NCBI RefSeq assembly: GCF_000300815.1
Contig: NZ_AMRX01000008.1
Span: forward strand, 1 to 64,000
Source: Gayadomonas joobiniege G7
Lineage (GTDB): Bacteria; Pseudomonadota; Gammaproteobacteria; Enterobacterales; Alteromonadaceae
Length of the DNA stretch: 64,000 nt
Direction of reading: 5' to 3'
Shown here: positions 9,735-25,540 of the stretch, one piece after another
How positions within the stretch are numbered: the first letter of the stretch is position 1
Layout of the letters: every line of letters starts with the position of its first letter
Notes under the pieces: model-generated
The model's input: the letters and a program-made list of their open reading frames with translations, nothing else
Told to the model about the DNA's origin: nothing
The model's database searches: none
Program-made: the position numbers and the translations under genes

Positions 9735-11090
9735 ATGGAGTTGTTTATCAGTCGGAGTTGTATCGCTGTGAAATTAAATCAGTTTTGGAAAAAGCGTTCG
9801 TTAAAATTTTGGTTAGCCAGTGGTATGTTGTTAACCATTTTGCCATTTGTTACCAGTGTTGTTTTAGGGTATTTCTTTTTTCATGGCAAAGTGTTTAATC
9901 CACTGGCCAATGTTGCAGAAGAGCAAAAAGCCATATTATTACCTTTGACCGAAATTCAACTTTCTTTTTGGCATGTTTCCGAGTCAGTGATTGATTTTGC
10001 CGTTAAACCTGAAGACAAATATGTTGAACAGTACAGAGCGCTAACCGTCAGACTTAACAACGAGCTGCAAAACCTAAAACATAATATGCAGCTGACTTTT
10101 CCGGATAAAAAACGGTTAGAAAGTGATTTAAAAATTGTTGAAGAAGACTGGCTAAGAGTGCAAAACAGTGCTCACGCGCTAATAGCCTCAAGTAAACAAG
10201 TGCAAAGCCCGTTGGTTATCAGTGATGAAGTTATCCAGTTTGAATCAGAAATCGACCGCTTAGGTAACGATTTAGCTACGCTTTACCGAGATCTAGCCAA
10301 TATCAATGAAAATTCCTACTATACCGCGATGCATGCATTGCAGCATTTTGAGTATATGTCACTCGTCGCTATTATTTTGTCTATTTTATTTGGGATTGTA
10401 GGTATTTTTGTTATCAATATTTCGCTTGTCAACAGCCTCAATAAGTTATCTGTTGGAGCTCAAAAGTTCGCTGCTGGTGAAAGTAATGCGGATGTGAAAG
10501 TTCAGATCCCTCATGAATTAGCGGGTGTTGCGAATACCTTTAACCAAATGAAAGAGAAAATATCAGAACAACGAGAAGCTCTGAAAGAGGCTGCATTAAA
10601 AGACGGCTTAACTGGGGTTTACAATCGCCGGCATTTTGACCAGAGCACCGAGGATTGCATCAAGAATGCGCATTTAAAGCAGCATAGTTTGGCTTTATTA
10701 TTGTTAGACATAGATTATTTTAAACGACTGAATGATGAATATGGCCATCAATGTGGAGATTATACGTTAAAGGTGGTTGCAAAAACTGTACTGAAAGAAT
10801 CAGGTTTGCAGAATATTGTCTGTCGATATGGTGGAGAAGAGTTTGCTGTGTTGATCCCGCAAAGCAGTGAAAATTACGCAGTGGAAACGGCTGAACGCAT
10901 CCGACAAGCGATTTCTGATGCCGATATTATACATCAGGAAGTCACTATCACTACAACGGTGAGCATAGGCATTGCTTTGTATCCAGAGCACGGTCGAAAT
11001 TTAGAAAAGCTGATAAAATGTGCGGATATCGCGCTATACCAAGCCAAAGAAAATGGGAGAAATCAGGTTCAAATTTATCGAGCACCGTAA
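9735..11090 (+). CDS. Membrane-bound diguanylate cyclase (GGDEF)
   Basis: 451 residues from ATG 9735. A GTG at 9768 preceded by GGAG gives a 440-residue product with a more typical cytoplasmic leader and may be the real start. Two membrane helices (about 27-50 and 207-230) bracket a mostly helical periplasmic region. A HAMP-like segment (232-285) leads to the GGDEF domain, whose active site reads RYGGEEF (366-370). The signature is compatible with active c-di-GMP synthesis. No RxxD motif is seen at the usual inhibitory site, so product inhibition may be absent. Not obviously in an operon. Confidence 0.9.
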   Translation: MELFISRSCIAVKLNQFWKKRSLKFWLASGMLLTILPFVTSVVLGYFFFHGKVFNPLANVAEEQKAILLPLTEIQLSFWHVSESVIDFAVKPEDKYVEQYRALTVRLNNELQNLKHNMQLTFPDKKRLESDLKIVEEDWLRVQNSAHALIASSKQVQSPLVISDEVIQFESEIDRLGNDLATLYRDLANINENSYYTAMHALQHFEYMSLVAIILSILFGIVGIFVINISLVNSLNKLSVGAQKFAAGESNADVKVQIPHELAGVANTFNQMKEKISEQREALKEAALKDGLTGVYNRRHFDQSTEDCIKNAHLKQHSLALLLLDIDYFKRLNDEYGHQCGDYTLKVVAKTVLKESGLQNIVCRYGGEEFAVLIPQSSENYAVETAERIRQAISDADIIHQEVTITTTVSIGIALYPEHGRNLEKLIKCADIALYQAKENGRNQVQIYRAP

Positions 11091-12987: not shown

Positions 12988-13053
12988 TATAACAACTCCT
13001 AGAATATTCGAACAAAGCAGGTTCAATTACGCCAAGGCTGGTTAAGTTGTCAC

Positions 13054-13098
13054 TGAGCACCCTAATCGATCCACCCATAGTCGGCATAATAGAGCCAC
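13054..13098 (-). repeat. IS21 left-end transposase-binding repeats
   Basis: Two copies (13054-13074 and about 13078-13098) of the GTGGMTCNATTA-type motif in the orientation of the outer end. They match the right-end repeats in inverted orientation. Confidence 0.75.
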
Positions 13099-13164
13099 TT
13101 TAAAGTGTCATTTTTACCCTCAAACAGGGTTATTTTTAGCGTCTTTTTAGACCGTTTTCAATGG

Positions 13165-13917
13165 TTATTTTCCCTCCCTTTTTTCATGTCTGAGTGAGCG
13201 GTAGCTTTCTCCTTCTAAGATCAGGCGATAAGCATTATGTCGAAGCCGATCTAATGTTGCTGCGCCAAGCAGTTTATTTGGGAAGGCATCACCCCATTCG
13301 CTGAAGTCTAAATTACTGGTGATAATGGTTGCTCCACGTTCATAACGCTCATCTATTAGATCATGGATATCTTCATCTTGAGGTGACTTTAGCGGCTTTA
13401 AGCCGAAGTCATCGATGATTAATAGCGGTACTTTGACCAGTGTTTGGAATCTCCGATCATAAGTATTCGTGGCGCGGGCTTGGTGTAAGTATGAGAGTAA
13501 TTTGGCTTGCGTATAAAAAGCCACATCGTAACCCTGTTGTACCGCATAGTGCCCAATGGCTTGGGCTAGATGGCTTTTGCCTGTACCACATGGCCCAGCT
13601 ATCAGCAGAGCGACTTTTTCTTCAATAAACTGGCAACTTGCCAGCTCATGTATCATCGCTTGGTTAAGCTTTGGATTGAAGTTTAAATCGAAGCTTTCAA
13701 GCGTTTTATTACTTCTAAAGCCCGCTCGACGCAGGCGACTGGCGTATTTTTTTTGATCACGACGGGCAACCTCATCTTGGATCAACAGAGCTAAGAATTC
13801 GGGATAGCTAAGTTGTCCAGCTATCGCTTCTCGATTGCGCTGTGCAAGTGTTTCGGTCATACCTGATAGGCGTAATTGCTTGAGTAATGGGGTAAGCTCT
13901 GGGATAGGGTTTTGCAT
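13165..13917 (-). CDS. istB: IS21 ATP-binding helper protein IstB
   Basis: 250 residues with a DnaA/DnaC-like AAA+ fold: Walker A GPCGTGKSH, Walker B LLIIDDFGL and the TSNLDFSEW sensor segment. IstB oligomerises on target DNA and activates the IstA transposase. This reading frame looks intact, in contrast to istA. It starts 21 bp downstream of the istA stop. Confidence 0.95.
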   Translation of the reverse strand: MQNPIPELTPLLKQLRLSGMTETLAQRNREAIAGQLSYPEFLALLIQDEVARRDQKKYASRLRRAGFRSNKTLESFDLNFNPKLNQAMIHELASCQFIEEKVALLIAGPCGTGKSHLAQAIGHYAVQQGYDVAFYTQAKLLSYLHQARATNTYDRRFQTLVKVPLLIIDDFGLKPLKSPQDEDIHDLIDERYERGATIITSNLDFSEWGDAFPNKLLGAATLDRLRHNAYRLILEGESYRSLRHEKREGK

Positions 13918-13938
13918 AATTAAGTCCTTTTTTGTTAT

Positions 13939-15479
13939 TTAGTGGGTGAAGAAGTTTTTAAGATCACGGTTAAATCGACCATTACCTGTATAGCTTTCAG
14001 CAAGTTCGTCGAAGCTTTTTTCAGGGCAAGATTGCTGGTCGAGACCTTTTTCGAGAATTTGTTTGACGGTGTTATAACGCACATTATCGAAGGTTAAGGC
14101 ACGTTCACACGCCGCTTCTAAGCGCTTTTCGCCATAGCGTTTGGAGAAGCTAATAATGCCTTGTGCAGCACGTAAATTATCGAGTACCTTGTGGCTGAAC
14201 AAGCGCTCTATAAATACCAAGCAGTTATCACCAATGGCCGCAGCTTGCTTTAAACACCATTGTGGGTCACGCATTTTATAAGCACTGGCATTGGGCGGTA
14301 GATGCTCATCTAACGTTGAGCGTTGGCCTGGCTGTTTCAGGGCTGGGTGAATGGCTTTAAGTTCATGGCTTTGATAAACCCTGATAGTTGTTTGGCTCAC
14401 TTTTAACCATAAGGTTTGGTGCACAAGCTGATAAGGTACGGATTAGCGGCATTTAGCAAACTGGACATGGCAATCACCATGAACTTTAACTTGTACCCAT
14501 TGCGCTAATTCTGGCGGAACATCAGGTAATGCTTTGAGTAAATGCTTTTCGGTTTCAACAAAGCGTTTGAGTGGCGCTTCTCGTGTTGTACCATGAATGC
14601 GGTTGCCTGCCTCGCTCATTAACCACGCTTTGAGCTGCTGGTTGGCATCGGTGATATGCCTAAACTCTCTGAGCGGCACGAAATTGTTTTTCACGTATTT
14701 CACATTTGATTCAACGCGCCCTTTCTTTTGTGGATCTCTCACAGGGCAAGGGGCGATAAGGAAGCCGTATTCCTCAGCGCAATCACCATAAGCACGTTGA
14801 ACTTCAGGATCGTGATAACAAGCTTTGGTGATTGCACATTTAGGGTTGTCGATTATCACACGCTGAGGTAAGCCGTTAAACCATTCAAATGCATGGCGGT
14901 GGCAAGCCAGCCAAGTCATCACGCTTTGATCCCAAATGAATTCGGCATACATATGGCGACTCCATAAGAGCGTCATCACGAAGATCCAACTTTTGCGTAT
15001 TTCGCCTGTGGTTTCATCAACCAACTTCGGTCCAGCCCCGAAGTCAACTTGCGCACTGCCCCCAGGAGCAAACTCAATCACCGTGGTCACAACAGGATCG
15101 GCTGCTTTGAGCTTATTTAATAGCGCCTAAGTGATGAGTAGCTACCAGTGAAGCCATGTTTACGCACAAGTGCGTTATAGATGGTCGTATATTGGATGCC
15201 ATCTTCAAGCTAAGCTTTAACCTCATCGTGATAAGGCTCGGTTAATGACGTTGTTGATGACTTAGCGGCGGGTTTACCAAGAACTGCCGCTAATTGTGCA
15301 TCATCAGGCAGGGTAAGATCAGGGTTAAGCCAGCCTTGTGCTTTGGCAGTTTTCCTTAACCCGCTGAGTTTATATCTTCCCATCAGGCCGCTATCAGCGA
15401 TGGTGCGATTAGATTCACCCATTCTCATCCGAACGAGTACATGACGATATTGATACATTTCAAACCTCCGGTTTGCCAT
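13939..15479 (-). pseudogene. istA: istA transposase gene, broken by two stops and a frameshift
   Basis: The frame from ATG 15479 (MANRRFEMYQYRHVL) encodes an IS21 transposase in three pieces. First, TAG at 15212-15210 replaces what is normally a Trp codon (K-A-stop-L-E-D-G-I-Q). Second, a 1-base loss near 15117-15120 shifts the frame after SSLRRY. Third, TAA at 14445-14443 replaces Tyr in C-R-(Y)-S-V-P-Y-Q. Reading through all three restores a normal-looking IstA with the DDE core (VDFG, IIDNPK, KGRVESNVK). With three independent lesions the copy cannot make its own transposase. Confidence 0.9.
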
Positions 15480-15560
15480 AGCGTGATCTCCTGATCTTGA
15501 GTACAAAAGATCAACGATACACAAAATTAAACAGAAGTTTGAGGGGAAATAACGACCTAA

Positions 15561-15681
15561 GTGGCTCGTTTATGGCGACAACAGCATGGCTCGATTACGG
15601 TGACTATCCGGTGGATCGATTATGCTGCGCATTAGGTGGCTCGATTATGGTGAACATCAAATGGCTCTATATGGGTGCTCA
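15561..15681 (+). repeat. IS21 right end: five repeats at a 25-bp period
   Basis: Units start at 15561, 15586, 15611, 15636 and 15661 and read like GTGGCTCGATTATGGTGAC with a few changes each. IS21 elements carry multiple terminal repeats bound by the transposase; an exact 25-bp period keeps sites on a similar face of the helix. Confidence 0.85.
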
Positions 15682-15969
15682 TTAACAGGCATATAGTATT
15701 GCAGCAATTGAACCTGCTGATGTACCGCTAACTACATCCGGTTTTATCCCTTCTTCTTCGAGTGCTTTAAGTACCCCAAGATGCATGAATCCACGTATAC
15801 CACCGCCGCCGAAAGCAATCCCTAGCTCATACTTGCCATGTGCTGGCGTTGTGGCTGCATTAAGGTCTTCATAAACATTTGGAGACGAACATGCTATTAA
15901 ACTGGCTACAACTGTAGAAACGCTCAGACTTTTTAACATCAATTTTTTGCCAAATTGTTGAATATCCAT
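15682..15969 (-). pseudogene. Patatin-like phospholipase lipoprotein, N-terminal half
   Basis: 95 codons starting with a lipoprotein signal (ASLIAC). The patatin oxyanion loop FGGGGIRGF and the nucleophile motif GTSAGS follow. The frame ends after ILYAC at the edge of the IS21 element. The missing part is found at 24872-25492: joining the two at a shared GCCT restores ILYASGMSL in frame. This half lies at the left end of the island, its other half at the right end, in circularly permuted order. Confidence 0.85.
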
Positions 15970-16111
15970 AATGTGAACCTCTTTAATTTTGTTGAGTTAG
16001 TCGCTAGCGGAGTAAATTTATTGCATGCTACTGTTGATGGAAGTATCGTTAAGAGGGCTAAACTATAGCTATCGCAATGATGCATAAATAGGCTGATTAA
16101 TCTTTAATAAA

Positions 16112-16130
16112 TGCCTATTTGTATCAATTT
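16112..16130 (+). promoter_or_regulatory. AraC-regulator site, upstream copy
   Basis: TGCCTATTTGTATCAATTT lies 20 bp before the araC start codon. The same 19 bp occurs in reverse orientation at 17077-17095, downstream of araC. One copy before the regulator and one before the next gene is the pattern of an auto- and cross-regulated locus. Confidence 0.65.
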
Positions 16131-16149
16131 TTATTATTTAAGTAGAAAC

Positions 16150-17040
16150 ATGACACATAGAATAAAACAACTAGTAGAGAGTCAGATCACTGAAGACGGT
16201 ATGATCGAAACGGGAATCAAAGGTGTCAGTCTGTTCAGGGTGACGCAAGCAACGCCCTGTGCACCAGCGGTTTATGAACCTACCGTGATCGTGATATTAA
16301 ATGGCAAAAAAGAAGCGATTCTCAACGGCGAGCATTATGTCTACGATAATAGCCAATATATGTGCTGTACAGTGTCTCTACCTGTTGAAGCGGGTACTCC
16401 TGAAGCTTCGCCAGAAGATCCATTGTTGGGGGTCTATATCTCTCTGAATACTAAGGTGATGACTGAGCTGAGTATTGAGATAGAAAGAACTGCGGGCGCG
16501 ATAAAGTTACCGAAAAGTAGTTCACAGCCACCTGGTATGTCACTGGCGAACTGGGATAACAACTTTTCCGATACGCTACTAAGATTACTTCAACTGGGCG
16601 AGAACACAGTAGATGCAGCCATCTTGGGTGAAAGTCGCTTGCGCGAGTTTTACTACGCGGTATTGAAAGGTGATGCGGGGATCGCGACAAGAAGAGCATT
16701 TGGTATTGGCAACGAAATCGCCAAGTCAATTGAATACCTATCACTTAACCTTAGTAAGAACGTCACCATCGATGAGCTCGCTTCTTTGGTTGGTATGAGC
16801 CGCGCAGTTTTCCATCGCAAATTCAAACAAGCAACTCGGATGTCTCCTATCCAGTTTATGAAATCGACGCGTTTAAATAAAGCAGCCATGAAGATAGCAG
16901 CGGGGATGACCGTCAACGAAGCTGCAATGGCGGTTGGGTATGTCAGCTCCTCTCAATTTAGTCGTGAGTTTAAACGCATGTACGGTCAATCACCGAAGCA
17001 ATGGGGTCAATCAAAGGGTTTAATTGAGAACATTGCTTAG
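16150..17040 (+). CDS. AraC-family transcriptional regulator
   Basis: 296 residues from ATG 16150. An earlier in-frame ATG at 16111 coincides with the 19-bp operator and is unlikely to be used. The N-terminal half (about 10-150) is an AraC_N ligand-binding domain of the YqhC-like group. The C-terminal 100 residues hold two helix-turn-helix motifs (TIDELASLVGMSRAVFHRKF and VNEAAMAVGYVSSSQFSREF). YqhC-type regulators respond to aldehydes and control neighbouring oxidoreductases; the SDR gene two positions downstream fits that theme. Target assignment is inference from the paired 19-bp sites. Confidence 0.9.
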   Translation: MTHRIKQLVESQITEDGMIETGIKGVSLFRVTQATPCAPAVYEPTVIVILNGKKEAILNGEHYVYDNSQYMCCTVSLPVEAGTPEASPEDPLLGVYISLNTKVMTELSIEIERTAGAIKLPKSSSQPPGMSLANWDNNFSDTLLRLLQLGENTVDAAILGESRLREFYYAVLKGDAGIATRRAFGIGNEIAKSIEYLSLNLSKNVTIDELASLVGMSRAVFHRKFKQATRMSPIQFMKSTRLNKAAMKIAAGMTVNEAAMAVGYVSSSQFSREFKRMYGQSPKQWGQSKGLIENIA

Positions 17041-17076
17041 TTAAATAGCTATTTAATTACCTACCTTTAAAATACG

Positions 17077-17095
17077 AAATTGATACAAATAGGCA
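17077..17095 (-). promoter_or_regulatory. AraC-regulator site, downstream copy
   Basis: AAATTGATACAAATAGGCA is the exact reverse complement of the site at 16112-16130. It sits 83 bp before the FISUMP gene start, in position to control the FISUMP-SDR pair. Confidence 0.65.
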
Positions 17096-17177
17096 ATTTT
17101 TAAAGAGTATTTCGCCTAGTTTAGATACAGAGTAATAGATACAGTAACCTCATAATACCGATGAAAGGTTACTTGTC

Positions 17178-17876
17178 GTGAAAAAGCTCATTTTATCTAT
17201 AGGAGTCAGTATGGTTTTTGCTGCTACAATCTCTGCCAATGACATCAACAAAGCACTATATCAACTGAAAAATACAGTGCAGGACGCGGAAGGCAATATC
17301 TATCGAACGGTGACGATTGGTGAGCAGGTTTGGTTAGCAGAAGGATTAAGAAGTACCAAGTTCCAAGATGGTTCAGCCGTCAGATCTGGCGTTATTCCCA
17401 ACGATGACGAAACTAACTTGCTGAAATATGGCCGACTCTACAACTGGCACGACGTTGCTGATGAAAGAAACTTATGTCCAGAAGGTTGGAGAGTTGCTAC
17501 CGATGAAGATTGGAAGACACTTGAGCGAACTATTGGGATGTCTGAAGAGGAGCTTCATCAAGAAGGTTGGCGTGGAGGTGACCAAGAGCTTGGTTTACAA
17601 CTAAAAGAAGCACAAGCGGATGGTCCGTTTAAGAAAGTAGATCAGTCACTCGTTAACAAGCATAACTTCTTTGCAAGACCAGCTGGTGTCAAGTGGAACG
17701 GTTGGTATATCACACAAGGGGCTTACACCGAATTTTGGACCGCAAATAGCGCTTCTGACACTAAAGGTATTATCCGCACACTAGCATACTCCTGGTGGAA
17801 TGCACATAAAGGCGAAATTCGTCGCGCTACCAGCTCAAAAGAGTATATGTTCAGTGTTCGCTGCGTGAAGATTTAA
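17178..17876 (+). CDS. Secreted FISUMP-domain protein
   Basis: 232 residues from GTG 17178, which follows AAAGG. A signal peptide ends near residue 20 (SAND). The rest matches the Fibrobacter succinogenes major paralogous domain: D-A-E-G-N-I-Y, TIGEQVWLAEGL, RLYNWHDV, CPEGWRVATDEDW and a C-terminal SVRCVK. The domain is common in Bacteroidetes and scattered in marine proteobacteria; its function is not established. Its position downstream of araC and upstream of an SDR suggests an accessory, possibly transferred, module. Confidence 0.82.
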   Translation: MKKLILSIGVSMVFAATISANDINKALYQLKNTVQDAEGNIYRTVTIGEQVWLAEGLRSTKFQDGSAVRSGVIPNDDETNLLKYGRLYNWHDVADERNLCPEGWRVATDEDWKTLERTIGMSEEELHQEGWRGGDQELGLQLKEAQADGPFKKVDQSLVNKHNFFARPAGVKWNGWYITQGAYTEFWTANSASDTKGIIRTLAYSWWNAHKGEIRRATSSKEYMFSVRCVKI

Positions 17877-17950
17877 CGAACTGGTCTCTTAGTAAAAAAT
17901 GCTATCAATAATGTCGGTAGCTCTTCCATTTCTAACAATAGGTATTTTAT

Positions 17951-18880
17951 ATGACTCATTCTTCAATCCTTATTACAGGTGCAAACTCTGGACTTGGGTT
18001 CGAAGCGGCAAGGCAGCTTGCTCAACAAGAAGGTGTTGGCAAAATCATTTTGGCCTGTCGTAACCAAACACGAGCACAAGAAGCGCTTCAACGCTTAGAG
18101 AATCTTACCGGCAAAAAGATTTTTGAAATCTTAATTGTTGATGTGAGTAACTTAGGGTCATGTCAAGCAGCAGCTGAAAACCTTAGCACTAACATCGACA
18201 GTATGATTTTGAACGCAGGTGGGGGCGGTGGAACTGAACCAACAAAACTAACCAAAGATGGCTCTATGTTTATTTTTTCAGCTAACGTGTTAGGGCATGT
18301 TCACTTCACCGATCTTCTAATGAAAAATGGTCAGTTATCCAAAAAAGGAACGGTAATGTATGTAGCTAGTTTTGCTGCAAGAGGTGCACCTGAAGTTGGT
18401 GCTGCTAAGCCTCCCATTAATGATGGCTCTATTGAGGAGTGGACATCGGTAGTTAATGGTGAAAAGTTTGCCGATAACAAGACTTATACTGACATCTACG
18501 GCTCCGTTAAGCTCATGGGTGCAATGTGGACGATGAGCATGGCTAGAAAACACCCTCAAATGCGCTTTGTCACCGTTGATCCAGGTATGGCGCGAGGTAC
18601 TTCGGGAACGGCTACCCTACCTTGGCATCAACGCTGGACTATGAATACAGCTATGTGGGTTATGCAACTGCTAGGTAAGGCACACTCTGTCGATGTCGGT
18701 GCAAAACGTTACGTAGATGTACTGCTGAACGATGATAACTTTAAATCTGGTATTTGGTGGGGTAGCGAGAAAGGGCTTACAGGAAAATTGGCTAATCAAG
18801 TAACACATTGGCCTGAAATCATTGGCAAGGAGTTAGCCCAAGACAATGCAAATATTGTTATTCATGAGTTTATCAAATGA
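17951..18880 (+). CDS. Short-chain dehydrogenase/reductase
   Basis: 309 residues with the NAD(P)-binding motif TGANSGLG (9-16), an NAG motif (88-90) and the catalytic YxxxK as YGSVK (Y183, K187). The length and the C-terminal extension resemble protochlorophyllide-reductase-like or retinol-dehydrogenase-like SDRs, so the substrate is probably a lipophilic carbonyl; that is inference. It lies 74 bp after the FISUMP gene, in the same orientation. Confidence 0.85.
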
Positions 18881-18941
18881 TAGAGAGTTGGCTTAAGAAT
18901 ATTGGCATCTTGTATCAGTATTCCTTACCTCTTTTAACTGC

Positions 18942-20072
18942 GCCGCTTGTCCTATCGCGCGCAAACTTGGGATCCCAAAGTTTGAACCCTATTTTAAGAT
19001 AAAAGATTATTTGGCAACGCACAACGTGGTTGTACGATCTTCCAATTATGAATTATACGCCGACTTATCCGATCGAATGATGAATATTATTGGTCGTTAC
19101 TGCAGCAATCAGCATGTTTATAGTATTGACGAGTCTTTCTTGCACTTTACCGGGCAAGTTAACTGGCATGAATTAGGACGGGAAATACGGCAGTCAGTAT
19201 GGCAAGAAGTAAAATTGCCAGTTGGTGTAGGCTTTGGTATTACACCAACGCTTGCAAAAGCGGCTAATCACGCAGCTAAAAAACTTGATGGATATGAGGG
19301 GATTGCTGTCATTAAGGATGCAAACGACGCTATATCCATTTTAAAGCAAATGAAATTATCAGACGTTTGGGGCATTGGCTCTAAGTTATCTAAAAAGCTG
19401 GAACTACTTGGTTTACAGAATGCGTATGACCTAGCTCAGCAAGCGCCGCGTCAAATGCGCAGATTTCATAGTATTGTACTCGAAAAGACAGTTAGAGAGT
19501 TAAATGGGGAAGTTTGTTTCAGCTGGGAGGATGTGAAGCAAGATAAGAGAGAGATTTTTTCAACCCGAAGTTTCGGAAAGAGAATTACTGATAAATACAG
19601 TTTAAAAACAGCTTTAAACGCACATGCTGATATTGTCGGCCGAAAACTCAGAAAACAGGGGGCGTTGGTCAAAAAGCTAATGATCTTTGCTCACAATTCA
19701 CCTTATGACACTCAGTTTATAAAGCGAAGCTTTTTATATGAATTTGCGATGCCAACTTCTGACACTATTGTCATTGCGAACGCTGTCAGTAGCACTTTAG
19801 AAAAATTATTCATTCCTAATGTACAGTTTTTTAAGTGCGGTATAGGCGCGATAGAGTTACACACTGCTAGCTTCACACAGCTTAGTCTGCTCGACAAAAG
19901 TTTAGATAAACCTGCGGTTATGCAGGTATATGATCAAATAAACAGCAGATACGGCATAGGGACAACTTTTACCGCAAGCAGCAGTATGACCGAAAAGTGG
20001 CGTATGAGAAGAGATTTTCTGTCGCCTCAATACACCACCAGATGGGCGCATATACCTCAAATTAGTTGTTGA
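18942..20072 (+). pseudogene. umuC: umuC-like Y-family polymerase, 5'-truncated
   Basis: UmuC similarity begins abruptly near 18942-18950 (CPIARKLGIPKFEPYF) and runs in one frame to the normal C-terminus (SPQYTTRW). The catalytic start of the palm, with its D-x-N-S-F-Y metal-binding segment (about 45 residues), is missing and no umuD precedes it. A TTG at 19011 could open a shorter product, but that would lack the first catalytic Asp. The YSIDESF motif with the other acidic residues remains. Best read as a decayed polymerase V subunit gene brought in or damaged during island assembly. Confidence 0.85.
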
Positions 20073-20317
20073 TACCTTTGTTTGCGCGCTTAGGCTGCTC
20101 AATTGCGATAAAAGTGCCAGAAGTCGATTAACCTCAAGAATACAAAATCCTCGTCCGGGATCCGCTCAAGTGTCAATCCAATGTTCGTTTTATGGGGCTA
20201 GTAATTCCTTTCAAATCTAATGCTGGTGAGTACAGAGGTTATTCACGAAAATCTTGGTCTTACACAACGAAGGGTATGTAATAACAATTAACGAATCCCT
20301 TAATGATAGTCGGGTGT

Positions 20318-20395
20318 GGCACTGAACTGGCACTTCATGGCATTGAACTGGCACTTCATGGCACTTGGAGTGCCATCAAGTGCCAGTTCAGTGCC
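20318..20395. repeat. Nested direct and inverted repeat, 20-bp-stem hairpin
   Basis: A 20-base unit (TGAACTGGCACTTCATGGCA) occurs twice in tandem at 20323 and 20344. The second copy pairs with 20371-20390 across a 7-base loop with a single mismatch. The outer 25 bases (20318-20342 against 20371-20395) pair with one mismatch. The stem is too long and GC-moderate for a typical terminator and has no T tract. Confidence 0.85.
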
Positions 20396-20442
20396 TCTTA
20401 AAAGGGTGCCATTGCTTGGTAGTAATCTGTCACCTTATTTTT

Positions 20443-20478
20443 GTTATAACAGTTATAATGGTTATAATAGTTATAATA
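20443..20478 (+). repeat. Four 9-bp tandem repeats GTTATAAYR
   Basis: GTTATAACA, GTTATAATG, GTTATAATA, GTTATAATA in direct succession. A single copy of GTTATAATA recurs at about 21405, upstream of intI. Iteron-like in appearance, but no replication gene is present. Confidence 0.7.
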
Positions 20479-20611
20479 ATACCACAAAAGCAGAAAACTG
20501 AAAATCGAAAATAAATAAAAAAATGTAAGTGATTGTTAGAGAACTGTTTTTACCCTATTTATATTTTCGAATTTTATAAAAAAGTGTTTTTTGGGGGAGC
20601 TTTTAGGTCAT

Positions 20612-20635
20612 AAAAAGCCAATTTTTGGCTTTTTT
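20612..20635 (+). terminator. Rho-independent-type hairpin
   Basis: AAAAGCCAA pairs with TTGGCTTTT across a short loop and is followed by T residues. No gene ends directly upstream, so it may be a relic. Confidence 0.5.
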
Positions 20636-21115
20636 GGCATGGAAAATGGCTTTTCGGGTCAGAACTTTTCGGTCATAAGGGAATTATTTTTTAGTTTGCT
20701 ACATAGGTAGTTTGTGTGGGCGTTTGAACTTTACTGTGGGTACTGAAGGATAGTTATAGCGCGATTCGACTAAAATTATGGATACACCTATATAAAGATA
20801 AAGCTAAATATGGTGAATAATGCTCATGTACCATGTAAGTAACGTAAATTTAACCCACGAACTATGAGTACCCATTCGGATATGGCAATGCTGATATCAA
20901 AAACTAATACTATGCTTTTGCGTGGGGATCAAATTAGACATTAAACCACTCCAATGTCAGAAATGAGCGAGAAGCAGATCTTAGTTAGCTTTTGGTTGAG
21001 CGTCGACTCTCAGACTCAAAGTAGACACTTGGTTTTCTATCAGAATTTTGAAGACTTCAGTATGCCAGATCAAGCGGGCTGCGAGCATAACCAAATTTAG
21101 AACCAATAACATATG

Positions 21116-21365
21116 AAAATCAATGTCTTTAATTCGCAATCTGAGTGCCTCATTTATTCTTAAGCCAGCACCAAACAATAGACTCGCTATGATTTGATAT
21201 TTACCCGACAGATTAGAAATAATTAACATGGCTTCTTGAGTGTTTAAAACCGTTAAAGCGAATAAAGGCACGAACCCAATGCAAATAAGATTTTTCGGTT
21301 GCATAGCTATAATGCTTGGTTCTGAGTTCAGTTCTAATTGACTCGATAAATTGAGATTTAGCCAC
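21116..21365 (-). pseudogene. intI: Integron integrase intI remnant with internal deletion
   Basis: From GTG 21365, 8 bp after GGAGG, the minus strand encodes [20 protein letters not shown] and [17 protein letters not shown], the classic IntI N-terminus. Near 21245 it jumps frame into [14 protein letters not shown] and [20 protein letters not shown], which is the start of the IntI catalytic domain. More than 100 codons between these blocks are gone. Everything after KDIDF, including the HxxR and Tyr catalytic residues, is also missing. It sits in the canonical divergent position to the cassettes. Confidence 0.9.
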
Positions 21366-21699
21366 CAATAAATCCTCCAATCAATATTGCTGTTTATTTA
21401 TACAGTTATAATAGAGGTATGCCAAAAACTCAAATTAATTCTCGCTTTGTTTTTTAACAAGGTATCGGTTTTATGCAAATTAAATGTTTTAATAATATGA
21501 TTTTTTTGTTTTTTTTATTACAATGAGTTTGAATAACGACCCTATATTTGGCTCGTTATGCAAGTTGGCTCGGTTTCTTTCCTAAAAGTTCTTATTGCTT
21601 TTGGGCGAGTTAATGCTTAAGTTTATGAAATGATTAATTTAAACTGCATTAGAATGGCATTTATAGACTCAATGTTAAAAAGTTCTATACGCTCTTCTA
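21366..21699. other. intI-cassette intergenic region, candidate attI
   Basis: About 330 bp, AT-rich, without a gene. It includes the LexA box and a core-like GTTATGC at 21555-21561, which would be the attI/first-cassette crossover. No large palindrome surrounds that core, as expected of attI rather than attC. The exact attI limits cannot be fixed by eye. Confidence 0.5.
21390..21405 (-). promoter_or_regulatory. LexA (SOS) box upstream of intI
   Basis: CTGTTTATTTATACAG fits CTGT-N8-ACAG exactly and lies 25 bp before the intI start codon. LexA control of integron integrases is established in Vibrio and for class 1 integrons. The box has outlived the gene it controlled. Confidence 0.8.
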
Positions 21700-22719
21700 A
21701 TGATTAAGATGTTAAATTTTAGGAGCATAGCCGTTAAGATTTTAGTTTTAGGTGGAACTGGATTTATAGGCAGACATATTGTTCAAATGTGTTTGGAAAA
21801 CAATCATGAAGTCAGCGTCTTTAGTCGTGGATTAAAAGAAAATATATTTCCAACCCAAGTTAAAATCTTTTTAGGGGATAGAGATTTTGATATTAAAGCC
21901 CTTCGTGCCTGTGGTGAGGAGTGGGATGTATGCATTGATCTAAGCGGGTATACAATAAATGCTGTAAACCAATCTGTTTCGTGTTTTTTTGACAAGATCA
22001 AACATTACGTTTACATAAGTGCTATTCGGGTTTTTAAACCTATGAAAGATACTCCTTTAACTGAAGAAAGTGAAAAAGTAGAGTATCTAATTAGAGATCC
22101 TGCTGAGATTAATAATGAAACTTATGGAAGACTTAAAGTTTCCTGCGAAAAAATAATAGAAAAAATTTTTAAAAATAACCATACCATTATTCGACCCCAA
22201 GTTGTAGTTGGTGCAGGTGATCTATCTGGTCGATTGGCCTATTGGATTTTAAGAAGTAGAAGTAATGAAAAATCTTTGTTGCCTGGAGACGGGACCGATT
22301 ATATACAATTTGTTGATGTTCGAGACATGTCAAAATTTATATTAAATGTAATTCAAAATAAGATTTATGGAAATTTCAATTTGGCCGGACATAGAATGCA
22401 GTGGTCAAGATTTTGTGAGAAAATCTGCTTTAATAATGGCGTGTGGGTAAAGTTAGACGAAAATGAACTTACTTTTCGTGAATTACCGCTCTATCGAAAG
22501 TCTGGAACAAATGACGCGTCGTTCATGAATGTCTGTAACAAAAAAGCTTTACGTAACGGTTTAACTTTAAGTGATATTAACTCCACAATTCATAGCTTTT
22601 GTAATTGGATTGAAAAATGTGAAGTAGAGAATGGAATTTTACCTTATCTTAATAAAGAACACCTATCATTAGAAAAAGAGCTAGACATTATTAGCAAAAA
22701 ACGAGCGACTAAAATTTAA
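21700..22719 (+). CDS. Cassette 1: NAD-dependent epimerase/dehydratase-like protein
   Basis: 339 residues in an extended-SDR fold: GGTGFIG (18-24) for the cofactor and YGRLK (Y142, K146) as catalytic pair. The region after 150 (TIIRPQVVVGAGD, FVDVRDMSKFI) is typical of nucleotide-sugar epimerases or reductases. The start is uncertain: homology begins at VKILVLGG, 11 residues in, and ATG 21700 or 21709 are the only conventional starts. More AT-rich than its neighbours, consistent with cassette origin. Substrate unknown. Confidence 0.8.
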   Translation: MIKMLNFRSIAVKILVLGGTGFIGRHIVQMCLENNHEVSVFSRGLKENIFPTQVKIFLGDRDFDIKALRACGEEWDVCIDLSGYTINAVNQSVSCFFDKIKHYVYISAIRVFKPMKDTPLTEESEKVEYLIRDPAEINNETYGRLKVSCEKIIEKIFKNNHTIIRPQVVVGAGDLSGRLAYWILRSRSNEKSLLPGDGTDYIQFVDVRDMSKFILNVIQNKIYGNFNLAGHRMQWSRFCEKICFNNGVWVKLDENELTFRELPLYRKSGTNDASFMNVCNKKALRNGLTLSDINSTIHSFCNWIEKCEVENGILPYLNKEHLSLEKELDIISKKRATKI

Positions 22720-22812
22720 CAATCGCATTAAGGCGGAACCCAAAAGCTTGCCTTGATTCGTACCTCACCAATTTTAGCCAAGCATTTTGTTCCGCTTATG
22801 CGGGCGTTATGC
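22713..22812 (+). repeat. attC site of cassette 1
   Basis: Begins at the gene's stop (ATTTAAC core) and ends at GTTATGC (22806-22812). Inner arms AAGGCGGAAC and GTTCCGCTTA pair, as do AAAAGCTTG and CAAGCATTTT, with bulges as expected for a single-strand-folded attC. Confidence 0.75.
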
Positions 22813-22824
22813 GTATGGAGATCT

Positions 22825-23181
22825 ATGCGGGTACTAATTGGTTTGATTATTTTTGTATCGAGCTTCGCTAAGGCAATTGATGCATGTCAGGAGCACAATT
22901 ATTGCCCACCACAAGGGATGGTACATGTTATGGTTTCCCCAAAAATTGCAGGAGAAAACAGGAAGCTATGTGATGGCGCGTCATTTTCTGTCAGCTTCTC
23001 ACTTAAAATGGGAATGCCCACCAACATATTAGTAGAGTCTGGTCCTGAACCTCTTAGGCTCGCAATTGTAGAAAGTTTCAAAAAATGGCGTTTTGGTGCT
23101 GTCGGGGAGGTTCAGAGGGCAGTTGAAAGCTTCACGTTAACATCAGCGTGCTCAATTCAGGAACCGACGGCTCCGTGGTAG
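22825..23181 (+). CDS. Cassette 2: small secreted TonB-C-like protein
   Basis: 118 residues from ATG 22825, four bases after GGAG; the frame is open further upstream, but that part is attC sequence. A signal peptide (FVSSFAKA) precedes a mature part of about 100 residues with four cysteines. The stretch SVSFSLKMGMPTNILVESGP plus AIVESFKKWRFGA resembles the C-terminal TonB/energy-transducer fold, but there is no membrane anchor or Pro-rich linker. Perhaps a periplasmic binding or decoy domain. Function unknown. Confidence 0.65.
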   Translation: MRVLIGLIIFVSSFAKAIDACQEHNYCPPQGMVHVMVSPKIAGENRKLCDGASFSVSFSLKMGMPTNILVESGPEPLRLAIVESFKKWRFGAVGEVQRAVESFTLTSACSIQEPTAPW

Positions 23182-23185
23182 TCAC

Positions 23186-23269
23186 GCATAACAAGGTGGT
23201 GTTGTCGCCTGCGGCTGGGACTGTCATTCCGCTAGCGCTCCATGCCAGCCCCAAACCACGGCGTTATGT
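23186..23269 (+). repeat. attC site of cassette 2
   Basis: GCATAAC at 23186 and GTTATGT at 23263 bound 84 bp with internal complementarity (GGCTGGGACT region against GCCAGCCCC). Confidence 0.8.
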
Positions 23270-23287
23270 CTCAGAAGGAATTGATAA

Positions 23288-23671
23288 ATGCGGTTAACTT
23301 TTTTACTACTTCTATTAGTCAATTTTGGCTGTCTTGCCTCATCTTGCATAGTCACCGATGAAATGCGCGAGCAGTTTAATTTCAAACATGGTGAAAAAGT
23401 TACTATTGATACAACCCTTAGAGATTCGAACTTCTCTGTAACTATAAAATTACCAGAGAGTATTGAAGGTCAAAGTTCTTATTCAGTATGGCTGGTATCA
23501 GACAGCCTTGAGGAACCAACCTTCATCTTCCCCTTAGATTTGTATGAAGAAGATAACCGAGCTATGGCGTGGTATGAAATAGATGCAGGACTTGTGAGAA
23601 AGCACTTTGTAGTAGTCAGCTTAAAAGACTCTTGTGCTCCAAGCCTGTTCAAGGAAGTTTTTTACCAATGA
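23288..23671 (+). CDS. Cassette 3: small secreted protein of unknown function
   Basis: 127 residues from ATG 23288 after AAGGAA. A clear signal peptide (LLLLLVNFGCLASS) is followed by a soluble beta-rich sequence with two or three cysteines. I do not recognise a family. The stop codon lies 1 bp before the next attC, the tight packing usual in cassettes. Confidence 0.65.
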   Translation: MRLTFLLLLLVNFGCLASSCIVTDEMREQFNFKHGEKVTIDTTLRDSNFSVTIKLPESIEGQSSYSVWLVSDSLEEPTFIFPLDLYEEDNRAMAWYEIDAGLVRKHFVVVSLKDSCAPSLFKEVFYQ

Positions 23672-23672
23672 G

Positions 23673-23781
23673 ACATAACAAAAAAATCAAGTCACTCACT
23701 TCGTTCGCTGGGACGCATACACGTGGGGCGGCTTCGCCAATTATGCCCCACATGTATGCGCCCCTTATTTAAAAGTTATGC
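23673..23781 (+). repeat. attC site of cassette 3
   Basis: ACATAAC at 23673 and GTTATGC at 23775. The core stem GCATACACGTGGGGC pairs with GCCCCACATGTATGC with one mismatch, and TTCGTTCGCTGGGAC is the left-arm motif seen in Shewanella/Pseudoalteromonas attC sites. Confidence 0.88.
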
Positions 23782-23831
23782 TTTTGTAAGTTAATCTAGC
23801 TTTATTTATCAATAAAAAGGAAATAAAAAGA

Positions 23832-24650
23832 ATGAAAAAGAAGTTTATAGTGCTAGCGATAGTAAGTATGTTTATGACTGGTTGTGCTACGGTAAAGTAT
23901 CAATCACCACCACCGATTGCCACAAACCATGTAACACATGAAGTAGCTAAATCTGATTTACTAGCACAAACTAATCATACACTAATGCACTTAAATCAAA
24001 GTGGAGATATTTTATACCAACAAAACTTTGGCGGCGGCGGAGCTGGAGTTGGAATTTTATTAGGTCCAATTGGTGTAATGGCAAATACTGCTGCGATAAA
24101 ATCGAATACTGAAGATGATGTTGAAGTTTTAAAAGAAAAGTTGGTGTTTAATCCTAGTGAATTACTCAAACGATCAACTGATAAGCACCAATTTGAGCTT
24201 ACAAGTGGCAATGCTGATTCAATAAAGTTAAGTCCTTATATATATGTATCTAAAACAGAAAATGAACAGCTGCTTTTTGCTTCTGCTCTTATTGTAGAAA
24301 CCGAACCGGGTAAAAATAGTAACTGGCTTGGAAAGTACATGTATCAAACCTCGTTAAAAATGGCGAAATCAGATATTGCCGACGGGGTAAGTCAGGAAGA
24401 ATATGCTCTGTTGAAATCTGCATTAGAAAACGGCTTTGATGAGTTAATTCGCTTATATTCTGAAGATAGAAAAGGAAGTCTAAAAACAGAACAAGCATTA
24501 ACGTTTATTAGTGATTTTGTTAGCCCAAGGTTCAACATTGAAATGGTAGGGGATCTAATACCTAGCGATGCAAACCGAGTTAATATCAGAACTGTTGGTG
24601 GTATTTATTCCCTTCCGAGAGATTCTGTTGAAGTAAAGTTTAAAAAATAA
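23832..24650 (+). CDS. Cassette 4: lipoprotein of unknown function
   Basis: 272 residues from ATG 23832. The lipobox M-T-G-C sets the lipid cysteine at residue 18. A glycine-rich hydrophobic stretch (FGGGGAGVGILLGPIGVMAN, about 66-85) could insert in a membrane; the rest is soluble and helical. No family recognised. Cassette-borne lipoproteins are frequent in environmental integrons. Confidence 0.7.
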   Translation: MKKKFIVLAIVSMFMTGCATVKYQSPPPIATNHVTHEVAKSDLLAQTNHTLMHLNQSGDILYQQNFGGGGAGVGILLGPIGVMANTAAIKSNTEDDVEVLKEKLVFNPSELLKRSTDKHQFELTSGNADSIKLSPYIYVSKTENEQLLFASALIVETEPGKNSNWLGKYMYQTSLKMAKSDIADGVSQEEYALLKSALENGFDELIRLYSEDRKGSLKTEQALTFISDFVSPRFNIEMVGDLIPSDANRVNIRTVGGIYSLPRDSVEVKFKK

Positions 24651-24653
24651 AAA

Positions 24654-24737
24654 ACATAAAAAGGCGCTGTTGTCGCCGCTATCGCGGCTGGGGCGGCTTA
24701 CGCTGCGCTTCAGCTGCCCCAAAGCTTTGCGTTAAAC
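24654..24737 (+). repeat. attC site of cassette 4
   Basis: Ends at the perfect core GTTAAAC (24731-24737). GGGGCGGCT pairs with AGCTGCCCC, and CGCGGCTGGGGC parallels the stem motif of the other sites. The left core (around ACATAAA) is degenerate. Confidence 0.72.
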
Positions 24738-24760
24738 TTGTATTTCCGTATTAAAATTAA

Positions 24761-24784
24761 GTCGGCTATCTGGCTTTAGCCGAC
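24761..24784 (-). terminator. Hairpin downstream of the patatin C-terminal half
   Basis: GTCGGCTA and TAGCCGAC form an 8-bp stem; on the minus strand it is followed by TTAATTTTAA. It probably terminated the original patatin transcript and marks ancestral sequence next to the cassette array. Confidence 0.5.
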
Positions 24785-24871
24785 ATTACATATCCTAGAG
24801 CCAAACTTCCGCTTTTGGCACAGATCCGTCGTTCAGCTCTAAATTATTTTTGCCCTAAAATGAGACAGAAA

Positions 24872-25492
24872 CTACTTGACCAGTAGAGCTTTTATCTTGG
24901 GCATTACCTCTTTTGTGGCAAGGTATCCTGCTTTAATCGCCCGTGATTTTTCATCAAATGCACCGCTGCTACTCGGTTCAAACGTAGGTGCTATTACAAC
25001 ATCAGCACTGTTCAACTCATCTTGAGATAAACGACAACTCTGCATTCGGAAAGCAGCGAGAGTAATATTACTGGCAGAGATTTCTGGAGCTGTTTGGTTG
25101 TGGCAATAAATATCAACGCCGATGACTTTTTTAGCACCTAAATTTCTAGCAGTGTATACTGGAACTACGCTAAACACCCCTCCATTTAACAAAATATCAC
25201 CTTGATTGTGCACAGGTACAATTGCTCCCGGGATCGTTGATGAGGTTTGCACGGCATGACCTGGGTTTCCAGAACGAATCATGACGGTTTCTTGGGTGGT
25301 TAGATTTGTCTCTGTCACTGCGACAGGAATGGGCAGAGCTGCCAGATCATCGTACTCTACTTGAGTGTTAATCCAATCTGACAGCCTTTTACCGTTGACT
25401 AGCCCTTTTGATGAGACAACAAAATCAGCAATATCCGACATATCTACCTTATCGATGGTTGCTTCTATCTTAGCTAGACTCATTCCTGAGGC
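24872..25492 (-). pseudogene. Patatin-like phospholipase lipoprotein, C-terminal half
   Basis: The frame opens without its start at GCC-TCA-GGA-ATG (ASGM) and continues for about 206 codons. Together with the 94 codons at 15682-15969 this makes a normal 300-residue RssA-like protein. Where patatins have the catalytic Asp (D-G-G/A), this reads LLNGGVFSVVPV, with Asn instead. Upstream of GCCT the sequence becomes unrelated spacer leading to the trx terminator, so no promoter or start for this half is evident. An internal ATG (25483) could in theory be used. Confidence 0.85.
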
Positions 25493-25540
25493 AAAACTTG
25501 ACTGCCTAATTTTGTTGCTGCGAGCTTGTAAACCTGAATG

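Follow-up and report, generated by a model that had tools for sequence, protein, structure and literature searches.

Plasmid integrations selected in Escherichia coli when plasmid replication was blocked, involving the insertion sequences (IS) IS1 and IS5 (PMC3031569), are among the closest described counterparts of the locus reported here. In the portion of that study on which we draw, two of 28 products (type II) carried a single IS1 together with all but 1 or 3 bp of the plasmid and had duplicated the chromosomal site; another two of 28 (type III) were crossovers at 1 or 3 bp of identity with no IS. We analysed the first 64 kb (hereafter the window) of a 769,523-base contig of Gayadomonas joobiniege G7 (NZ_AMRX01000008.1; genome of 3.91 Mb in eight contigs). 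Here, the two parts of one patatin-like gene bracket an island of about 9.8 kb in circularly permuted order, and an IS21-family element lies against its left end. The island looks like a natural trace of an event type already seen in the laboratory. As in type II, a single IS stands at one end of what would be a whole circle split at one point, both lying between chromosomal flanks; the circular state of the DNA is what we infer. Unlike the type II products, the island has no chromosomal target duplication, so we do not file it under that type, though it may work alike. It also differs from their 1- or 3-bp deletion, since there is no terminal loss and the ends overlap by 4 bp instead. It resembles type III in a short identity (AGGCA), but an IS end is flush with the joint. 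Finally, it is set apart from the products described in that portion of the study by the family of its IS, by being a natural mosaic ring and by the absence of a recognised replication gene.

Partial parallels come from other systems, as far as the accounts used here describe them. In IS26-type translocatable units, an IS and its adjacent DNA move as a circle that lands at an IS. These units leave an IS on both sides, whereas the island has only one, of a different family. Human segmental duplications formed via circular DNA, in the part of the report cited (PMC7450558), likewise carry a reversed sequence order that marks the ring intermediate; unlike them, the island is bacterial, single copy and placed at an IS end. 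A circular intermediate is also shared with integrase-type genomic islands that have circular forms. Site-specific islands and integrative and conjugative elements have their own working integrase and often sit at a tRNA gene. By contrast, no working integrase was recognised for the island (the only site-specific recombinase among the ten open reading frames (ORFs) scanned was an intI remnant), the window contains no tRNA genes, and att repeats were sought at the island edges only.

The N-terminal 94 codons of the patatin gene (15688-15969, minus strand; PF01734, 63.2 bits) end at the tip of the IS21 element, while the C-terminal 206 codons and the stop codon lie at 24872-25492 on the same strand. 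Read along the minus strand, the order is C-part, island, N-part, the opposite of what simple insertion into the gene would give. By alignment, the halves form a single Vibrio-type gene, and an intact orthologue in Vibrio comitans (locus L030) spans both. In blastn comparisons, the N-part side (15689-17047, which takes in the araC gene as well as the N-part) matched positions 9996-8638 of that locus at 83.75% DNA identity, and the C-part side (24866-25493) matched 10621-9994 at 83.6%. The coordinates of the two parts meet at 9996/9994, with no sequence lost between them. The parts were also run separately by tblastn, taking in only loci that matched both; the last codon of the N-part was the first codon of the C-part in 22 of the 28 rows (14 distinct loci). 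The other six rows comprised four distant paralogues and one Vibrio gene, present twice, in which the N-part alignment ended at residue 85. The identities of the two parts co-varied across 20 tblastn rows (r = 0.96), a set whose range is broadened by distant paralogues and which includes a truncated duplicate of one gene. Both the unity of the gene and the permuted order of its halves, the core of the original prediction made from the sequence, are thus borne out. An origin of the halves from different paralogues, the possibility against which that prediction was to be checked, is ruled out by the V. comitans alignment, the shared codon junction and the correlated identities.

The gene has the features of a patatin-like phospholipase, with the PF01734 domain, the serine motif in the N-part and the DGG/DGA position in the C-part. 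Residues 51-95 of the N-part correspond to domain positions 1-46, and residues 15-113 of the C-part to positions 61-190, the latter at a score of 23.4 bits, under the cut-off of 27.7. The DGG motif reads NGG in the C-part, at a place where all six orthologues compared have aspartate, and this may be a sign of decay after the break. The ratio of nonsynonymous to synonymous substitutions (dN/dS) between the window and V. comitans was 0.18 for the N-part and 0.085 for the C-part; between V. comitans and Vibrio maerlii it was 0.06 and 0.04, and between V. comitans and a further genome of the genus Vibrio (G338) it was 0.11 for the N-part, several of the dS values being saturated or undefined. Both parts therefore still look constrained at the codon level, which, together with the asparagine in the DGG motif, suggests that the break is young compared with the divergence from Vibrio. 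The C-part occurs once in the host genome, where the second protein match is a paralogue of 29% identity. It was matched in 41 of 60 host-relative genomes (host counted), with a top identity of 36% outside the host. Meanwhile, in a scan of GTDB contigs, seven of 33 candidate stretches encoded relatives of 65-88% identity, three from Vibrio, one from Photobacterium, two from Shewanella and one from a Thalassolituus bin.

The two breaks coincide within a few bases. AGGCA occurs on the plus strand at 15687-15691 and at 25489-25493, and the first A of the left occurrence is the final base of the IS21 element. The bracketing repeat is thus the 4-bp GGCA, with its left copy at 15688-15691 and its right copy at 25490-25493, the chromosome being taken to begin at 25494. 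Closing a ring at the patatin gene gives an overlap of exactly these four bases. The interior parts would then make up one circle of about 9.8 kb with a whole patatin gene, in the order umuC' (a umuC gene without its 5' end), spacer, integron, patatin, araC, Fib_succ_major-domain gene and short-chain dehydrogenase (SDR) gene, and back to umuC'. We propose, at a probability of roughly 60%, that such a ring, either free or as a head-to-tail intermediate of unit length, entered the chromosome a single time, within the patatin gene and at the end of the IS21 element. This figure is for the combined statement of a ring and its entry at the IS21 end; the ring intermediate taken on its own we consider quite likely.

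Since the two breaks share one base pair and no sequence was lost, a single ring event is preferred over two deletions. The latter belong to the other origin suggested by the original prediction, a tandem duplication that embraced the 9.8-kb unit and then lost its outer halves, without any ring. Such a history results in the same gene order, and amplification of IS-bounded units is common. However, it would require two deletions that arose independently yet stopped at the same base; for deletions hitting the 900-bp gene at random, the chance of both falling within 4 bp is about 1%. No second copy of the C-part, of the full-length IS21 element or of umuC was found in the genome, so that none of these favours a duplication; a second copy of window positions 15688-18880 was not properly sought, which leaves the duplication some room. 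We regard it as very unlikely.

The IS21-family element occupies 13048-15687 (minus strand), its right terminus flush with the N-part of the patatin gene. Its istB gene is open (13165-13917), and istA is broken, with two or more stops and a shift of frame as judged by eye. The NCBIfam models IS21_help_AAA (266 bits, cut-off 200) and, for the IstA piece, transpos_IS21 (197 bits, cut-off 160) identify the gene pair of the family, namely a DDE transposase and an AAA+ helper. Terminal repeats of IS21-family elements begin with TG, as do the inverted tips found here (TGTTAATGAGCACCC on the right and TGTCACTGAGCACCC on the left), which are equal at 15 of their first 20 bases. The left tip is fixed by a 194-bp fragment elsewhere in the genome (C7:721817-722010, 98% identical), a left end isolated between two ORFs that begins exactly at the base equivalent to 13048. 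The full-length element was found once in the host genome. The bases to its left (AAGT) and right (GGCA) do not match, so no target duplication spans the element and it is not in simple insertion. We class it as IS21 by its genes and ends, and the absent target repeat fits a rearrangement after insertion. The original prediction was right in placing the left break at the IS21 end; the five bases (GTTAA) that it left unexplained turn out to be the tip of the IS21 terminal repeat. It was also right that the right break has no IS: none was seen there, and an eye comparison of the right flank gave no convincing match to an IS21-like end.

An IS terminus flush with the break suggests that the IS21 element participated, and it is involved at least by position. 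We give its participation less weight than the ring. Under the proposed mechanism, one event within the patatin gene would have placed the ring (free, or one unit of a head-to-tail array) in the chromosome, with a ceramidase-like gene on one side and trxA on the other. In one version, the IS21 element would first insert into the patatin gene of the ring, duplicating 4 bp of its target; the molecule would then be opened at the outer IS tip and enter the chromosome as IS21 plus ring. In another version, a chromosomal IS21 element would react with the ring. Either version would split the ring exactly at the IS end and leave GGCA on both sides. If an IS21 end underwent strand transfer into the ring, a few ring bases would be duplicated, and the GGCA repeat looks like such a duplication.

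The entry route may have been IS21-linked insertion, which we place somewhat ahead, or an illegitimate crossover at 3-5 bp. In its full form, the latter would be a Campbell-like reciprocal crossover at AGGCA between the ring and a chromosome already bearing IS21-GGCA-AAAC, with the IS21 element as a bystander; the chromosome before the island would have read IS21-GGCAAAAC, that is, with the right flank starting GGCAAAAC beside the element. The presence of AGGCA at both product joints and a right joint without an IS are consistent with such a crossover, and crossovers at 1 or 3 bp of identity are the two of 28 type III products mentioned above. On the other hand, the crossover would by chance have hit the IS terminus exactly, and the IS21 element would have had mismatched flanks beforehand. 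We consider this alternative credible but unlikely.

Several observations weigh against an IS21-linked ring entry. An eye comparison of the two chromosomal flanks (...GGTTAAGT on the left, AAACTTGA... on the right) gave no target duplication and no flush repeat common to both. The GGCA duplication consists of a few bases in a codon that varies among orthologues, and the target repeats of the IS21 family are of 5 bp, not 4, in the part of the literature consulted (PMC10122671). A canonical IS21 reaction is expected to leave IS ends on both sides or a chromosomal duplication, neither of which is seen, and there is no second IS21 element at the right break. In the E. coli study, within the portion used here, the majority of products were apparent cointegrates at a chromosomal IS (16 of 20 and eight of eight in two series; PMC3031569). 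As to further copies of 15688-18880 in the host genome, the search covered the SDR part, where two of 16 candidates were scored. The searches of the host genome also recovered neither a 5' end of umuC nor umuD, so that there is no known donor scar. Finally, the evidence comes from one genome, as an assembly without reads.

We also compared the surroundings of the island with congeners. The ceramidase-like gene of the left flank and trxA of the right flank lie on separate contigs in one of them (G005) and far apart in another (G007). The congener homologues of the ceramidase-like gene are 39-50% identical and may not be orthologues, and the gene adjoining trxA is not the same in the two genomes. 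Hence, an empty site, with the left flank joined to the right flank, was not demonstrable in G005 and G007.

The gene content next to the N-part provides a further view of the ring. Window positions 15688-18883 are colinear with some Vibrio genomes, comprising the patatin gene, an AraC-type regulator (16153-17040, plus strand), a Fib_succ_major-domain protein (17178-17876, plus strand) and, at the end of the operon, the SDR (17951-18880, plus strand). Contrary to the original prediction, in which neither half had intact flanks, the region upstream of the N-part is intact, as the araC-Fib_succ_major-SDR series runs on as in some Vibrio. Two candidates were scored per genome in this search and in that of the host family, so the counts are lower bounds. 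Among 227 genomes from the genus that includes V. comitans, at least 50 had a match to window positions 15687-18945, and a single alignment ran from araC or earlier to the end of the SDR gene in at least five (G313, G298, G338, G311 and G417). In G338, positions 15689-18876 are unbroken and are followed by the C-part (24847-25470) on the same strand, in the order predicted by the ring. In V. comitans, the SDR gene is nowhere near the patatin gene and the best SDR match is weak. Uninterrupted relatives of the gene and its neighbours, as the original prediction had recommended looking for, thus exist, in V. comitans for the gene and in G338 for the colinear operon.

The joint of the ring away from patatin would be the 52 bases between the SDR and umuC genes (18884-18935). 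They are followed by a umuC gene without its first 36 codons (18936-20072, plus strand), assigned to the host genus by protein and DNA identity. Its protein is 79% identical to residues 37-415 of UmuC of the genus-mate G007. At the DNA level, identity is 74-75% to G007 and G005 and 68% to G004 and G001, while no match was obtained in G002, G003 and G006 with two candidates scored per genome. A query covering 17900-20970 was matched in at least 51 of 196 host-family genomes (host counted); among the matches listed outside the host, none starts before window position 18932 and none includes the SDR part. The umuC neighbourhoods of G007 and G005 differ, as for an accessory gene. The gene occurs once in the host genome. 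Queries with umuC and umuD of G007 found no umuC start there, the only umuD match being one of 33% on contig C2. The donor place of the ring would thus have been lost or lie on another replicon.

This junction bears on a further history without a ring. In a block swap, IS21 would have entered the patatin gene, and the block IS21-N-part-araC-Fib_succ_major-SDR, at first to the right of the C-part, would have relocated to its left, into umuC, the start of which was then lost by an IS21-adjacent deletion. Such a history accounts for umuC being cut exactly where the SDR side starts, and IS-adjacent deletions do terminate at IS tips. It nevertheless requires a one-ended move plus a deletion, and the umuC start and umuD are absent from the genome searches; a target duplication at the SDR/umuC junction was not looked for systematically. 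We regard the block swap as rather improbable.

Between umuC and the patatin C-part lie a spacer and an integron platform. The spacer (20073-20963) contains no ORF of 80 amino acids or more and has a nested inverted repeat at about 20317-20395. It includes a pair of adjoining 21-bp direct repeats as well as inverted repeats of 25-27 bp nested in one another, an arrangement that might be the replication or partition site of a former plasmid. The platform (20964-24865, plus strand; right end at 24822 or about 24865) consists of an intI remnant on the minus strand, an attI region and gene cassettes, and it ends only a few bases from the patatin stop codon. The integrase gene is a remnant, scoring 49 bits against a TIGR02249 cut-off of 265; its pieces are 77-90% identical to an annotated integron integrase, with residues 47-103 missing. 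Integron recombination has a GTT-type crossover core. No such core was seen by eye at the patatin break, and integron recombination was rejected as the ring-opening reaction.

Contigs C7, C8 and C4 of the host genome carry related integron stretches in several positions, as seen in a search in which 40 of 47 candidates were scored. The cassette stretch 23767-24822 is 99.3% identical to C7:1033953-1035008, and further cassette DNA is 88% identical to an Alteromonas macleodii plasmid. The same deletion of residues 47-103 (numbered by an Acinetobacter baumannii plasmid homologue) is present in the integrases of the window, C7:1032624-1033385 and C7:304156-304680, with a junction that is identical except for one base in the first C7 copy. 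In locus coordinates, the platforms sharing it lie at 21112-21716 of the window, 3274-4482 of L059 (the copy with the one-base difference) and 3431-4032 of L060. A shared deletion junction suggests copying after the integrase broke; the platform has thus probably multiplied after the loss of its integrase, by other means.

By its sequence affinities, the island is a mosaic of a Vibrio-type operon, a umuC that lacks its 5' end and belongs to the host genus, and an integron with a dead integrase that has relatives elsewhere in the genome. A umuC of the host genus and a locally related integron point to a ring put together in this lineage and not imported whole. The original prediction of a circle opened within the gene therefore stands as the most economical explanation, while an arrival of the whole island from outside as one circle is not supported. 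Local DNA and an operon derived from Vibrio were probably combined into the ring in the host lineage. The repeated integron also raises the matter of an assembly error, as stretches of at least 150 bases recur in the genome at 81-99% identity and the reads were not seen. Since the C-part and the full-length IS21 element are single copy, however, the joints at 15688 and 25493 fall outside known repeats, and we hold an assembly error to be extremely improbable.

Where the two edges of an island hold one gene in circularly permuted form, they preserve a ring intermediate as a fossil, resolved almost to the base, and assembled genomes can be screened for footprints of this sort. The locus also suggests a route by which an operon of Vibrio type, part of a DNA polymerase gene and an integron were joined and mobilised with no functional site-specific integrase among them. 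A broader notion, that IS21-family elements capture adjacent DNA as a circle and insert it via one true IS end, strikes us as doubtful. If it were true, mosaics of foreign operons and dead-integrase integrons would spread without their own integrase and leave circularly permuted genes behind.

Two Catenovulum adriaticum plasmids (672,341 and 646,854 bases) match the window. As for a vehicle, none of the matching plasmid records covered at least 80% of an island half (zero of 14 for the left and zero of 15 for the right), and no relatives of the C-part or of umuC were present in the viral contigs searched.

The platforms themselves displayed further features. Sharp outer boundaries occur at two loci: one boundary carries TGAGCGAAAAGCAGA, the opposite one TGTGCCAAAAGCGGA or TGTGCCAGAAGCGGA in reversed orientation, and the pair resembles an inverted repeat of 15 bp (TGAGCGAAAAGCAGA / TGTGCCAAAAGCGGA). 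The boundary sites are 20964 and 24822/24865 in the window, 4482 and 4954 in L059, where the two come from neighbouring platforms, and 6277 and 4353 in L061. CAGAAA brackets the window platform (20958-20963 and 24866-24871), and no flush target duplication was seen by eye at the other two loci. Against 24822 as the right end, the window copy and an Acinetobacter plasmid stretch (L037) are alike for about 42 bases past it. The platform is possibly a transposon-like, non-autonomous mobile integron, an idea we offer as a lead only. L037 comes from a conjugative plasmid of A. baumannii from Ghana and carries, at 1-2067, a related integron with an integrase annotated as unbroken; this integron and the C7 platform share 89% identity over 707 bp. 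Integron attC sites fold as bottom-strand hairpins. Of three putative attC stretches, one folds no better than expected (z -0.7, with 50 of 200 shuffles folding equally well), and two, at 22717-22812 and 23673-23784, form hairpins much better than their shuffles do (z -4.2 and -5.9). The stretch at 23673-23784 recurs several times in the A. macleodii plasmid.

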